Source of the DNA: an uncultured Gammaproteobacteria bacterium
GTDB taxonomy: Bacteria > Pseudomonadota > Gammaproteobacteria > CAMYKB01
Assembly: GCA_947258875.1 (NCBI GenBank)
Contig: CAMYKB010000010.1
Coordinates: forward strand, 1-63,941
DNA length: 63,941 bases
Direction of reading: 5' to 3'
Position numbers and translations under genes: made by a program. Below the pieces are notes generated by a model. It did not search any database, had not been told where the DNA came from, and worked only from the letters and a program-made list of their open reading frames with translations. This document shows positions 29,269 through 34,632 of this stretch, one piece after another; within the stretch, counting starts at the first letter, position 1; each line of letters starts with the position of its first letter.

Positions 29269-30147
29269 ATGGATCCAGAACACGGTATGCCAGCCTCAGA
29301 ATTACAAGTTAAAGCCGCTTACGCTCACTGCCTTGCCATTAGCCGGGATCACTACGAAAATTTCCCCGTGGCATCTATGTTATTGCCGCAAAGATTGCGC
29401 CATCCTGTAGCAGCGATATATGCATTTGCCCGCCGTGCCGACGATTTCGCAGATGAAGGGGATATCGACAACGACACGCGGATTAAATCCTTACAGGCGA
29501 TGGGCACCTCACTTGATGCCATTATCAATCGCGAAGCGACAGATGATCCGGTTTTTATCGCTGTCAATGATGCAATAGTACGCTTTCAGCTGCCTATTGA
29601 GTTATTCCACGAGTTGCTATCGGCCTTTACACAGGATGTTACCAAGCACCGCTATGCTCACTTCGGCGAAGTTATGGAGTATTGCAAACGTTCCGCCAAC
29701 CCTGTCGGCAGGCTGTTATTGCATCTGACGAATCAGGCCACAAAGCAGAATATCGCGTACTCAGATGGCGTTTGCAGCGCATTACAACTCATTAATTTTT
29801 ACCAGGACCTTGCTCAGGATTACCATGAACAGGGGCGTATATATATACCCGCTGATGAAATGATGGATTATGGCGTCAGCGAAAGCCATTTTCGCGATAC
29901 TATTAGTGATAGCGCCATGGCGGCATTGATGCAAAAACAATATCAGCGTGCTGACAAAATCCTCAGGGCAGGCGCCCCGTTGGGAAAACAACTCAAGGGA
30001 AGGTTCGGCATAGAGATCCGTGCCGTTATTCTTGGCGGCGCACGCGTGCTATACCGATTACGACAGCAGGACAAGATATTTTCGCGCCCAAGGCTGAACT
30101 ACCAGGACTGGTTTTCAATCTTAAAGGGTGCTTTTTTGAAGAAATAG
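29269..30147 (+). CDS. hpnC: Hydroxysqualene synthase HpnC
   Basis: HpnC converts presqualene diphosphate into hydroxysqualene in the three-step bacterial squalene route. The 292-residue protein belongs to the squalene/phytoene synthase fold. The first Asp-rich motif is FARRADDFADE and the second is NFYQDLAQDY. HYENFPVASMLLP near the N-terminus is typical of HpnC and separates it from HpnD. No clear ribosome-binding site marks the ATG at 29269; the ATG at 29287 is an alternative. It opens the hpnC-hydrolase-hpnD-hpnE-SDR group, about 100 bases after rmuC. Confidence 0.93.
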   Translation: MDPEHGMPASELQVKAAYAHCLAISRDHYENFPVASMLLPQRLRHPVAAIYAFARRADDFADEGDIDNDTRIKSLQAMGTSLDAIINREATDDPVFIAVNDAIVRFQLPIELFHELLSAFTQDVTKHRYAHFGEVMEYCKRSANPVGRLLLHLTNQATKQNIAYSDGVCSALQLINFYQDLAQDYHEQGRIYIPADEMMDYGVSESHFRDTISDSAMAALMQKQYQRADKILRAGAPLGKQLKGRFGIEIRAVILGGARVLYRLRQQDKIFSRPRLNYQDWFSILKGAFLKK

Positions 30148-30243: not shown

Positions 30244-31014
30244 ATGTTTAGCCCATCTCGCATGCTTGGTAAATTGCTTGCCAGGTATCTGCAAAAGCAA
30301 ATCAAGACCTATAATATGTTCGCTGCCTCTGACCCGGACGCGCTCGAAGCCATTTTACAACCTGGTGATATCCTGCTTGTCGAGGGTAACCTGCGGATCA
30401 GTACGGCAATCAAATACCTGACCCAGTCGACCTGGTCACATTCAGCGATGTATGTGGGTGACGTCGTTGGCAGCAAGGACAAAGATGGCAACGCCAAGGT
30501 ATTGATAGAGGCAGATATCATCAAAGGCGTAATCGCATCACCTCTCGCCAAATACAAATCCTTCAACATCCGTATTTGCAGACCACTAGGCGTTACATCT
30601 GAGGACAAGATGAAAATCCTCAATTACATGATGAAAAGCCTTGGCAACTCCTACGATTTGAAGAATGTTATCGACCTGATGCGTTACCTGTTACCACAAC
30701 CACCGGTACCCAGCCGCTTCCGGCGCCGTATGATTGCTCTCGGCAGCGGCGACCCGACTCGCGCGATCTGTTCGAGCCTGATCGCACAGGCCTATCAGGC
30801 AGTAAATTACCCTATTCTGCCTACAAGGGTCGTCAGGCAGAATCAAATTGACTACTCAGACAAGGAAATTCTCAAAATTCGTCACCACAGCCTGTTTACG
30901 CCGCGCGATTTCGACCTGTCACCCTACTTTGAAGTCGTCAAACCCACCATCAACCAAGGCTTTGATTACCAAACCATAGTCTGGGCTGATACAGATGCCA
31001 CTGATAATAACTGA
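30244..31014 (+). CDS. Permuted NlpC/P60 (YiiX-like) cysteine hydrolase
   Basis: A 256-residue protein without a signal peptide. The motif order fits the permuted papain-like family typified by YiiX: GDILLVEGN, then the His box STWSHSAMYVGD (His66), an acidic IEAD (Glu89) and finally the Cys box AICSSLIAQAY (Cys176). Placing His before Cys is the mark of the circularly permuted group, which includes amidases and lipid acyl-transfer enzymes. The substrate is unknown. The gene sits between hpnC and hpnD in the same direction, with gaps of about 96 and 49 bases, so a link to lipid or hopanoid chemistry is an inference. The N-terminal 30 residues are basic and amphipathic, which could favour membrane contact. 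Confidence 0.8.
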   Translation: MFSPSRMLGKLLARYLQKQIKTYNMFAASDPDALEAILQPGDILLVEGNLRISTAIKYLTQSTWSHSAMYVGDVVGSKDKDGNAKVLIEADIIKGVIASPLAKYKSFNIRICRPLGVTSEDKMKILNYMMKSLGNSYDLKNVIDLMRYLLPQPPVPSRFRRRMIALGSGDPTRAICSSLIAQAYQAVNYPILPTRVVRQNQIDYSDKEILKIRHHSLFTPRDFDLSPYFEVVKPTINQGFDYQTIVWADTDATDNN

Positions 31015-31063: not shown

Positions 31064-31909
31064 ATGACACCTGATAAATACTGCCAGGAAAAGACCGCAA
31101 AAAGCGGTTCCAGCTTTTATTACAGCTTTTTATTTCTGCCACTGGAACAACGCCGCGCTATCACAGCGCTGTATGCATTCTGCCGTGAAGTGGACGATAT
31201 TGTAGATGAGTGCAACGAACCTGCCGTTGCTGCTGCTAAATTAGGCTGGTGGCGAGAGGAAATCAAGCATACCTTTCAGGGAAACCCCTCTCATCCCGTT
31301 ACCAAGGCCTTGTCACCATTTCTTGAAAGTCGCAATCTTCCAGAAGAGTATTTTCAGGAAATCATTGATGGCATGCAGATGGATTTGGAATTCGATGCTT
31401 ATCCGAGTTTCAAGGAACTTTCTCTATACTGCTATCGTGTCGCCGGTGTTGTTGGTTTACTGGCAGCAGAAATTTTTGGTTATCAAAATAGGCGCACACC
31501 CCAATACGCACACTATCTCGGCATCGCCTTCCAACTCACCAATATTCTCAGGGACGTGCGTGAAGATGCAGACCGGGGCCGTATGTACATCCCACTAGAC
31601 GAACTTGAGGAATTCAAGGTCAAGCCCGAAGACCTGAGAGTCGGCATTTCGTCCAGTAAGACACATGAATTATTTGCGCATCAGGCGCAACGCGCACAGG
31701 ACTATTATCGGCGCGCATTCGACTCTTTACCTGATGAAGATCGATACCCACAACGCAGTGGTATCATCATGGCAGAAATCTATCAGGCCCTGCTCAAGGA
31801 AATTGAGGACGATGGCTTTCGCGTATTGGAACAACGGACATCGCTGACACCATTACGCAAATTCTGGCTCGCATGGCGTACCTCCCGACGTGAAAGAAAA
31901 TACCGCTAA
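31064..31909 (+). CDS. hpnD: Presqualene diphosphate synthase HpnD
   Basis: HpnD condenses two farnesyl diphosphates to presqualene diphosphate, the first committed step. The protein is 281 residues. Motifs: SFYYSFLFLPLEQRRAITAL, the Asp-rich CREVDDIVDE, YCYRVAGVVGLL and the second Asp motif NILRDVREDADRGRMYIP. It differs from HpnC by the SFYYSF start and the intact DxxxD helix pair. It lies in the hpn group with a 39-bp gap to hpnE. Confidence 0.95.
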   Translation: MTPDKYCQEKTAKSGSSFYYSFLFLPLEQRRAITALYAFCREVDDIVDECNEPAVAAAKLGWWREEIKHTFQGNPSHPVTKALSPFLESRNLPEEYFQEIIDGMQMDLEFDAYPSFKELSLYCYRVAGVVGLLAAEIFGYQNRRTPQYAHYLGIAFQLTNILRDVREDADRGRMYIPLDELEEFKVKPEDLRVGISSSKTHELFAHQAQRAQDYYRRAFDSLPDEDRYPQRSGIIMAEIYQALLKEIEDDGFRVLEQRTSLTPLRKFWLAWRTSRRERKYR

Positions 31910-31948: not shown

Positions 31949-33271
31949 ATGCATAAACCGGTAATCATCGCAGGTGGCGGCTGGGCTGGCATAGCCGCAA
32001 CAATCCAGCTTACGCATCACGGTATCCCCGTTACACTGCTTGAGGCTGCATCGACACTCGGCGGACGAGCGCGCTGCGTCAACCACAATGATCAGGAGTT
32101 TGACAATGGGCAACACCTGTTCATTGGTGCATACCGTTCGCTGCTTAAGATCCTGCGCATCCTCGATATCGAGGAGGATGATATTTTCATTCGTCAGCCA
32201 TTATCCTTGTTAACCAAGACATCCAGTACAAAACATGTCAGGTTAACCACACCCAGGTTACTGCCTGCACCCCTGCACCTGCTTGTCGGACTGGTGTGCA
32301 CTCAAGGCATCGTTTTAAATGACAAATGCCGTGCACTTTCCCGCCTCAACAGCATGCTGGCCTGGAAAGACCCACATGATATCAGTGTGTCGGCCCTGCT
32401 CAATGAGTTCAGTCAACCCCGTGCACTACGTGAATACCTATGGGAACCAATCTGCCTGGCATCACTAAATACACCGATCGAACACGCCTCTGCCAAGGTA
32501 TTTATAGAAACGTTGAGAGAATCATTCACAGGTAATCGCGCAAATTCCGATTTGCTGATCCCTAAGAAAAATATCTGCGAAATATTTCCCTCCCCTGCAC
32601 AACAGTATCTCAAGAAGCATAATATCGATGTTCACTTTTGCGAACGAGTGAAACACCTCGACATATCAAATAATACTGTCAAAGGCTTGAGTACTAGGCA
32701 TGCAAGCTTCGATGCGGATCACATCATTCTAGCAACAGCGCCACGTCAAACGCTGCGTCTCATCAATGGCATACAACCCTTGGACTCGATCAGCAAAAAA
32801 CTTGGCAACTTTGAGTATGAACCCATCTGCACAGTCTATTTACAATATCCACAACAGACACAATTGGGAAGGCCGTTCCTGGCAATATCTGCTGCTACTG
32901 CGCAATGGATTTTCGATCGCCGCATCACTGGGACACCCGGGATGATGGCAGCCGTCATCAGCGCTGACGGTCCACACATGGCACTGTCAAATGAGCAGTT
33001 GATTGAAAATGTAAAAGCAGAATTGGCAATATTTTTCCCACATTGGCCTTCTGCACAAAGCGCAAATGTTATCCGTGAAAAGCGTGCCACCTTCCGCTGT
33101 AGCCTGGATATTGATAAACAACGCCCAGCTAATGTGACTGATCTCAAAGGCCTGTGGTTGGCCGGTGATTACACTGACACAAAATTGCCTGCCACGCTGG
33201 AGGGGGCGGTACGTAGCGGTATACAATGTGCTAACCGAATTATTGATCATTATCAGAAAACAGACTCATGA
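31949..33271 (+). CDS. hpnE: Hydroxysqualene dehydroxylase HpnE (FAD-dependent)
   Basis: HpnE reduces hydroxysqualene to squalene with FAD. The 440-residue protein has the FAD-binding dinucleotide motif VIIAGGGWAGIAATIQL at its start, LLEAASTLGGRAR, the FDNGQHLFIGAY segment common in this family, and a C-terminal FAD contact GLWLAGDYTDTKLPATLEGAVRSG. It resembles carotenoid desaturases in fold, but the hpnC-hpnD context makes the squalene role clear. Its end overlaps the SDR start by four bases (ATGA). With HpnC and HpnD it completes squalene synthesis; the squalene-hopene cyclase is not in the window. Confidence 0.93.
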   Translation: MHKPVIIAGGGWAGIAATIQLTHHGIPVTLLEAASTLGGRARCVNHNDQEFDNGQHLFIGAYRSLLKILRILDIEEDDIFIRQPLSLLTKTSSTKHVRLTTPRLLPAPLHLLVGLVCTQGIVLNDKCRALSRLNSMLAWKDPHDISVSALLNEFSQPRALREYLWEPICLASLNTPIEHASAKVFIETLRESFTGNRANSDLLIPKKNICEIFPSPAQQYLKKHNIDVHFCERVKHLDISNNTVKGLSTRHASFDADHIILATAPRQTLRLINGIQPLDSISKKLGNFEYEPICTVYLQYPQQTQLGRPFLAISAATAQWIFDRRITGTPGMMAAVISADGPHMALSNEQLIENVKAELAIFFPHWPSAQSANVIREKRATFRCSLDIDKQRPANVTDLKGLWLAGDYTDTKLPATLEGAVRSGIQCANRIIDHYQKTDS

Positions 33272-34014
33272 CTCCTGAAGAAATAGAACACTACAGTGCA
33301 CCCATAGATCTGTTACAGGATCGCGTCATAATCGTCACTGGTGCTGGGGATGGCATTGGCAAGGCTGTTGCCAAGACCTATGCGGCACATGGCGCCACAG
33401 TAGTACTGGTCTCCAAAACCATCAAGAAACTCGAAGCTGTTTATGACGAAATCGAGGCGGCCGGAGGACCCACACCTGCAATCTATCCAATGAATTTTGA
33501 GGGTTGTACCGTGAAGGATTATGAAGATATGGCGACCGCCATAGAAAAGGAATTCAACCGTCTTGATGGGCTTCTCAATAATGCAGGGTGGGTTGGAGCA
33601 TTTACAGCTTTGAGTCAATATGACGTGGAACTTTGGTCCCGCGTTATTACTGTCAATCTTCACGCAACCTTCCTGATGACCCAAGCCTGTATCCCATTGC
33701 TTGAAAGAGCCAGCGACCCGGCTATAGTATTTTCGACTCATGATTGTGCGAGAGCATATTGGGGTGCGTTTGGCATTGCCAAACAGGGGCAGCAGGCCAT
33801 GATGCAAATGCTGGCATCTGAACTCGATACTGACAAAAACAAAGTGCGCGTTAACGGCATCGATACTGGCCCGGTACGCACCACCATGCGCATTCAGAAT
33901 TTCCCGGGCGAAGACCCGAACACCCTACGGCGCCCGGAAGAAATCACTGCGCCCTATCTATACTATATGGGGCCCGATAGCCGTAATTTGACAGGTGAGA
34001 ATTTCACATTTTGA
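33268..34014 (+). CDS. YciK-like short-chain dehydrogenase with altered active site
   Basis: A 248-residue SDR closest in character to YciK. The cofactor site is intact: VTGAGDGIGKAVAKTYAAHG (the GxxxGxG pattern) and LLNNAGWVG. The catalytic site is not. The YxxxK motif reads FGIAK (TTT codon for Phe), and the Ser normally found about 13 residues earlier lies in VFSTHDCAR with no clear match. YciK of E. coli keeps Tyr and Lys. The protein may bind NADP without normal SDR catalysis, or use another residue. It overlaps hpnE by four bases, so it is translated with the squalene genes. In Pseudomonas, yciK follows ubiG-mupP, so this may be the same neighbour after an insertion of hpn genes. Confidence 0.85.
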   Translation: MTPEEIEHYSAPIDLLQDRVIIVTGAGDGIGKAVAKTYAAHGATVVLVSKTIKKLEAVYDEIEAAGGPTPAIYPMNFEGCTVKDYEDMATAIEKEFNRLDGLLNNAGWVGAFTALSQYDVELWSRVITVNLHATFLMTQACIPLLERASDPAIVFSTHDCARAYWGAFGIAKQGQQAMMQMLASELDTDKNKVRVNGIDTGPVRTTMRIQNFPGEDPNTLRRPEEITAPYLYYMGPDSRNLTGENFTF

Positions 34015-34092: not shown

Positions 34093-34632
34093 GTGAATAA
34101 AAAGTCAGCGTTACTGACAATGCTGCTGGGTACCTTTGCTACCCTCAATTTCACCAACGCAAAAGCGATGGATGCTGACGCCATTATTGGTTCGTGGATC
34201 ACAGCAGGCGAGGCCTCACGCGTTGTAATTAGCAAACGAGACGGATTGTATTTCGGAGTTATCGCTGCGTTAAAAGATCCAACCTATCATACCGGTGAAA
34301 TTGAGGGCATGGACGGCAAATCACGTACTGACCATAACAATCCCGATTCCCGGTTTCGTACCGAACCGTTAAAAGGCCTGGTATTAATGCAGGGATTCAG
34401 ATACCAAAACGATAAATGGCAGGGTGGAACAATTTATGATCCAAACAATGGTAAAACCTACAAGGGGGTACTCTCACTTGCAGCCAATGGCAACCTGCAG
34501 GTGCGCGGCTATATCGGTGTATCGCTCATAGGCAGGACCACTATCTGGGAGCCGCTAGGATTGTACCGCGACAAGCAGTTTAGGTTTCTCGGAATCAGGG
34601 ATTGCGATTGTGGAACCCCGAATTCACACTAG
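34093..34632 (+). CDS. DUF2147 exported protein
   Basis: A 179-residue protein with a signal peptide ending near TNAKA (about 25). The mature part shows the DUF2147 pattern: IIGSWITAGEASRVVIS, DHNNPDSRFRTEPLKGLVLMQGF, the GGTIYDPNNGKTYKGVLSL strand and LQVRGYIGVSLIGRTTIWEPL. Proteins of this family are small beta-barrels of unknown function, some near lipid or membrane genes. The start codon is GTG at 34093. It follows the SDR gene by 78 bases and may be its own unit. Confidence 0.88.
   Translation: MNKKSALLTMLLGTFATLNFTNAKAMDADAIIGSWITAGEASRVVISKRDGLYFGVIAALKDPTYHTGEIEGMDGKSRTDHNNPDSRFRTEPLKGLVLMQGFRYQNDKWQGGTIYDPNNGKTYKGVLSLAANGNLQVRGYIGVSLIGRTTIWEPLGLYRDKQFRFLGIRDCDCGTPNSH

Follow-up and report, generated by a model that had tools for sequence, protein, structure and literature searches.

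The YciK family of short-chain dehydrogenases (SDRs; NF006509) is widespread: of 369 genomes sampled from the class, 210 contain a match (E<=1e-25). It is represented by several crystal structures, among them those of Escherichia coli (3f1k and 3f1l) and Pseudomonas syringae (3i1j); the open-licence literature that we found does not give its function. In the passages available to us, a paper of January 2025 calls E. coli YciK uncharacterised and describes no growth advantage with pCbl on its overexpression (PMC11841063). No paper among the open-licence literature on SDRs with natural loss of the catalytic Tyr was titled on YciK, and no report of a YciK variant with Phe and His was found in open-licence literature.

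Departures from the textbook Ser-Tyr-Lys triad have been described elsewhere among SDRs, and two of them are compared here by description. According to the excerpts consulted, the pteridine reductase PTR1 has an acid/base residue, Asp181, 13 residues before Tyr194, with Lys198 kept, and the proton of its second step is taken from water (PMC8996148); from this spacing, we infer that Asp181 occupies the position of the catalytic Ser. Eugenol synthase has the SDR fold and keeps the Lys, which its activity needs, and is still an NADPH reductase with the catalytic Tyr absent. However, it is isoflavone-reductase-like and so belongs to a different SDR subfamily, and the phenol of its substrate sits about where the Tyr hydroxyl would be (excerpts of PMC1991597). 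MAT2B was considered as a further precedent for Tyr loss and dropped, as its triad is retained according to the part of the source available (PMC3793261).

We identified a YciK-family SDR with both catalytic columns altered in the window, that is, the whole stretch of 63,941 nucleotides analysed here. The gene and its active-site features are as follows.

33268 to 34014, forward strand: YciK-family SDR with His158, Phe168 and Lys172, 248 aa (ATG start; NF006509, 282.8 bits against a cut-off of 269; PF00106)
33337 to 33360, forward strand: glycine-rich dinucleotide-binding motif TGAGDGIG, residues 24-31 (from the translation)
33739 to 33741, forward strand: codon CAT of His158, in the catalytic Ser column (from the family alignment)
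33769 to 33771, forward strand: codon TTT of Phe168, at the catalytic Tyr position (FGIAK being residues 168-172)
33781 to 33783, forward strand: codon AAA of Lys172 of the YxxxK motif, retained (from the sequence)
33865 to 33867, forward strand: codon ACT of Thr200, replacing the Pro of the SDR 'PG' motif (from the sequence)

The protein thus combines retained and lost features of classical SDRs. The cofactor motif (TGxxxGxG), the NNAG motif and the Lys are present; the Tyr, the Ser and PG are not. A PG motif after beta6 is a feature of SDRs, and this protein has Thr200-Gly201 there. An earlier note on this DNA had read an intact Rossmann cofactor motif and a Phe in place of the Tyr of YxxxK, and both readings hold. 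It had also described the Ser as out of its normal place; the normal Ser is indeed lost, but it is not simply missing, as its column is occupied by His158 and the adjoining loop is shortened. In the family alignment the window SDR has 9 residues between the Ser and Tyr columns instead of 12, and pairwise alignments with solved YciK proteins locate the three absent residues directly ahead of the Tyr site, although the alignments disagree by one or two residues on where the gap after His158 lies. Whereas PTR1 keeps the Tyr in an Asp-Tyr-Lys triad, the window SDR has His-Phe-Lys.

The solved YciK proteins resemble the window SDR over the whole length (40-45% identity) and in the glycine-rich motif, the Asn and Lys positions and the fold; they differ at the Ser, Tyr and PG Pro positions, where the window SDR has His, Phe and Thr, respectively, and in the loop, which is three residues shorter in the window SDR. 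The best seven solved chains by sequence are all from the YciK family. An AlphaFold2 model, built from four sequences, reached a mean pLDDT of 76.8 and a pTM of 0.81, with low confidence at residues 159-164 and 201-219, so that it leaves the active-site geometry uncertain. The closest structural matches of this model were 3i1j (Z 31.7) and E. coli YciK 3f1l (Z 30.4). Ranks 1 to 10 were YciK-family chains (Z 29.5-31.7), some of which bear just the title 'short chain dehydrogenase', and other SDRs followed at rank 11 with Z 29.4, a tie with the YciK-family ranks. By their titles, the matches 3f1k, 3gz4 and 3gy0 are YciK-family structures with bound NADP+ or NADPH, and the window SDR probably binds NADP(H) as these solved proteins do.

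Relatives were drawn from stretches fetched from part of the 210 matching genomes, all among the best matches listed, with the weakest YciK matches outside the fetched set. Three orders (around genomes G009, G074 and G089) were searched deliberately and are over-represented, and the sample leans toward window-like sequences. Removal of identical or contained proteins reduced 254 loci to 205 distinct YciK proteins with 83 family codes. The window's own order is represented by no second genome in the set searched for relatives, a scan of genome contigs returned distant SDRs only (28-31% identity), and a scan of viral sequences detected none.

Among the 205 proteins, the Tyr site is occupied by Tyr in 144 and by Phe in 61, and loss of the Ser is also common to many relatives. 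All 61 Phe proteins have the three Gly of the glycine-rich motif, and their Phe codons are TTT in 42 cases and TTC in 19. The earlier note had allowed for a sequencing error at the TTT codon or for an isolated variant among relatives that keep Tyr; both are excluded, because many relatives also have Phe and lack the normal Ser, and conservation of the cofactor site is strict. Judged from sequence, the variant with Phe and His is therefore an evolved form and not an isolated mutation. The triads most often found were Asp-Tyr-Lys (75), His-Phe-Lys (48), Ser-Tyr-Lys (38) and His-Tyr-Lys (10), with others fewer. The combination of Ser or Thr with Tyr and Lys is complete in just 41 of the 205 proteins, and the textbook triad is a minority in this window-leaning sample (about 19/83 when weighted by family).

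In a quick maximum-likelihood tree, from which the trait columns were left out and in which several rows lie on long branches, the window protein falls in a clade of 76 proteins (SH-aLRT 99) spanning 12 family codes, with 51 of the 76 rows from one order (f75). Phe occupies the Tyr site in 56 members and Tyr in the other 20, compared with Phe in 5 of the 129 proteins outside the clade. The Ser column holds His in 58 members, Asp in 13, Gln in 4 and Glu in 1, and all 58 His rows belong to a nested clade of 71 rows (SH-aLRT 92). Outside the clade, His is absent from this column (0/129), Ser is lost in 85/129 and Asp is the commonest residue (69/129). The Lys172 column is Lys in 76/76 clade members, compared with 113/129 proteins outside; the 16 losses include loci L048, L053, L060, L065, L071, L227 and L237.

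The clade is also marked by changes at other positions. The Pro column of the PG motif holds Thr or Ser in 68/76 members and Pro in 129/129 proteins outside. Asn196 is kept in 76/76 members and Asn130 in 71/76, being lost in 5/76, and in the nested 71-member clade Asn105, Asn196, Thr205 and Pro213 are fully conserved. Residues unlike the outside majority are W108 (63/76), F112 (49/76), H132 (60/76) and N211 (57/76); judging by where they lie in the SDR fold, positions 108, 112, 132 and 211 probably line the pocket. Tyr164 was rejected as a replacement for the catalytic Tyr, as it is present in 58/76 clade members but in 120/129 proteins outside and so offers no specific compensation.

The exchange of Tyr and Phe is frequent. 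The tree requires no fewer than 13 such changes, 7 of them forced by starred branches, and therefore the hydroxyl looks dispensable; His against other residues in the Ser column takes 5 changes and loop length 12. The proton donor that the earlier note regarded as lost is missing from many relatives too, but Tyr and Phe interchange within the clade, so that the loss is not uniform. Both residues occur within the genus codes g10 and g75. Clade members with His or Gln in the Ser column have Phe and Tyr in a ratio of 52/10 and those with Asp or Glu in a ratio of 4/10 (p=1e-4), a count that ignores shared ancestry; a tree-based independent-pairs test did not support a coupling of Phe and His. With pairs filtered at dN<0.12 and dS<1.5, dN/dS was 0.028-0.099 (median 0.065) in 50 close Phe pairs and 0.031-0.22 in 34 close Tyr pairs outside the clade; with the dN limit dropped, 115 Phe pairs gave a median of 0.10 and a maximum of 0.90. 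These values point to the Phe clade being a constrained, diverged subfamily and not the decay of an unused gene, and the active-site pocket looks like one rebuilt under constraint.

The gene stands at the end of a cluster whose HpnC, HpnD and HpnE products all pass curated cut-offs; yciK is not among the three named enzymes of that pathway.

29269 to 30147, forward strand: hpnC, squalene synthase component (TIGR03464, 303.2 bits against a cut-off of 250.45)
30244 to 31014, forward strand: C92 permuted papain-like (YaeF/YiiX) protein inside the hpn cluster (PF05708)
31064 to 31909, forward strand: hpnD, presqualene diphosphate synthase, both Asp motifs intact (TIGR03465, 367.9 bits against a cut-off of 278.6)
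31949 to 33271, forward strand: hpnE, hydroxysqualene dehydroxylase (TIGR03467, 396.3 bits against a cut-off of 283.05)
33268 to 33271, forward strand: ATGA, the four-base overlap of the hpnE stop and the yciK start (from the sequence)

The four-base overlap had been noted before and stands as described, the hpnE stop ending at 33271 and the SDR starting at 33268. The next gene after yciK, at 34093-34632 on the same strand, encodes a DUF2147 protein (PF09917). A C92 YaeF/YiiX-type gene occurs in the hpn cluster of the window and of 3/154 other loci (L170, L172 and L226), placed after hpnC, or after gph in L226.

The order mtaD-ubiG-gph-rmuC-hpnC-hpnD-hpnE-yciK recurs, whole or in part, among relatives. 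Upstream genes were counted in 155 loci, 2 of which had too little upstream DNA. In the 153 scored, yciK is directly preceded by hpnE in 45 loci, by an SQS_PSY gene in 30, by rmuC in 11 and by gph in 10, with none detected in 57; inside the clade the numbers are hpnE 8, SQS_PSY 5, rmuC 3 and none 29. The gap in the 45 hpnE-yciK pairs is mostly within about 30 bases, and it is -4 in 7 of them, including the window, as measured from the start of homology rather than from a checked start codon. In the f75 order (L059, L150-L169 and L209), 19 of the 22 loci shown have a cmoA-type gene after yciK, and a cmoB-type gene and a 2OG-Fe dioxygenase gene (PF10014) follow in many; one representative each of CmoA and CmoB from these loci passed the NCBIfam cut-offs.

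The presence of SQS_PSY and that of YciK are not associated across the 369 genomes (both 133, YciK only 77, SQS_PSY only 87, neither 72; p=0.11). The earlier placement of the gene at the end of a squalene operon is borne out as a recurring gene order but finds no support as a functional clue, with 77 of the 210 YciK genomes lacking an SQS_PSY match. The squalene link is one of gene order, and the squalene pathway as sole context was rejected for want of co-variation in presence.

We identified 75 HpnD-type genes within 6 kb of yciK. Where hpnE lies in the fetched stretch, both Asp motifs are kept in 44/45 of these genes; where it does not, 25/30 are without at least one Asp motif and 23/30 without both, hpnE being scored as absent from the stretch and possibly lying elsewhere in the genome. 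The Asp-poor genes of L047, L045 and L060 score above the SQS_PSY cut-off and below the HpnD cut-off. Asp-motif-poor HpnD-type genes include those at 5687-6547 in L047, 5705-6541 in L052 and 7150-8232 in L060. As described in part of one source, NDUFAF6/NDU1 resembles these HpnD homologues (not the SDR) in having the SQS_PSY fold without DxxxD motifs (PMC8007014). It differs in being a mitochondrial complex I assembly factor, whereas the presence of YciK shows no association with that of NuoD (182/28/130/29, p=0.24). A role in complex I assembly through an NDUFAF6-like HpnD was considered, but this result speaks against it; genome G056 (L052), moreover, is without a NuoD match at E<=1e-100 although it encodes YciK together with an Asp-less homologue of HpnD. 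Where it lies near yciK, the degenerate HpnD homologue is a candidate partner of YciK.

What the window SDR does can be read in several ways, of which we favour one at roughly even confidence, namely that it remains active, with altered chemistry, on a small ligand next to the nicotinamide. In the clade the catalytic Ser column has changed to His, with Asp, common in the clade and in the rest of the family, as a possible intermediate; the beta5-alpha5 loop is shortened, the Pro of the PG motif exchanged for Thr or Ser, and Tyr relaxed to Phe, while the glycine-rich motif, Asn105 and Lys172 are retained. In the active site thus rebuilt, a water molecule bound to Lys172 or His158 would probably give the proton, or the ligand itself would, instead of the tyrosine hydroxyl. 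PTR1 and eugenol synthase offer precedents for the two missing elements. Points that weigh against this reading are that His is not universal in the clade, that Asn130 is lost in 5/76 members and that most of the clade rows come from one order. Alternatively, the protein may be a YciK reductase of the ordinary kind, with Tyr and Phe as nearly neutral alternatives since another group already does the acid catalysis. The occurrence of both residues within single genus codes and the frequent changes on the tree agree with this, but the concentration of Phe in one clade (56/76 against 5/129) speaks against it, as does the company of Phe with His or Gln, a count that ignores shared ancestry and that the independent-pairs test leaves without support; we regard it as improbable. 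We think it equally doubtful that yciK works with HpnCDE in squalene or hopanoid synthesis, for example by providing reducing power for HpnE. The hpnE or SQS_PSY gene directly upstream in 45 and 30 of 153 loci, with hpnE mostly close by, would fit such a role; against it stand the lack of association in presence (p=0.11), the cmoA and cmoB neighbours in the f75 order, the loci with gph or rmuC upstream, and the often degenerate HpnD copy near yciK when hpnE is absent.

A tentative reading, to which we give less weight than to altered chemistry, is that of a pseudoenzyme, in which an NADP(H)-binding SDR shell would serve as a scaffold or as an assembly or redox-sensing partner without hydride transfer. 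Each residue of the Ser-Tyr-Lys triad is dispensed with in some part of the YciK family, the full triad with Ser or Thr is found in just 41/205, and the neighbouring HpnD homologue is often stripped of Asp motifs where hpnE is absent (25/30), as in NDUFAF6/NDU1 according to the excerpt cited above (PMC8007014). The strict conservation of Lys and Gly would equally follow from cofactor binding alone, and the losses of Lys (16/129) and Ser (85/129) outside the clade suggest that classical catalysis may be unnecessary for the family as a whole. On the other side, the Lys is kept in every member of the window clade and in fewer of the proteins outside, a new conserved set of pocket residues arose, the HpnD of the window is intact, and YciK presence shows no association with NuoD (p=0.24). 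Both readings, which correspond to the different chemistry and to the binding or regulatory role suggested in the earlier note, fit the sequence; altered chemistry is favoured over a pseudoenzyme because the pocket combines novelty with conservation. We further speculate, as an unlikely but slightly less doubtful possibility than the reductase and squalene readings, that the clade moved acid-base catalysis from Ser-Tyr to His-Lys-water, and that in relatives YciK and an Asp-less squalene-synthase homologue might form a conserved non-isoprenoid module of repurposed enzymes.

The family to which the window SDR belongs is known but functionally uncharacterised, and the form described here is a new variant within it. 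A clade that swaps the SDR proton donor for Phe, with the Lys and a new pocket kept, is a natural experiment on the role of YciK and on the rewiring of SDRs. It also calls for caution, in that such genes should not be called oxidoreductases by fold alone.
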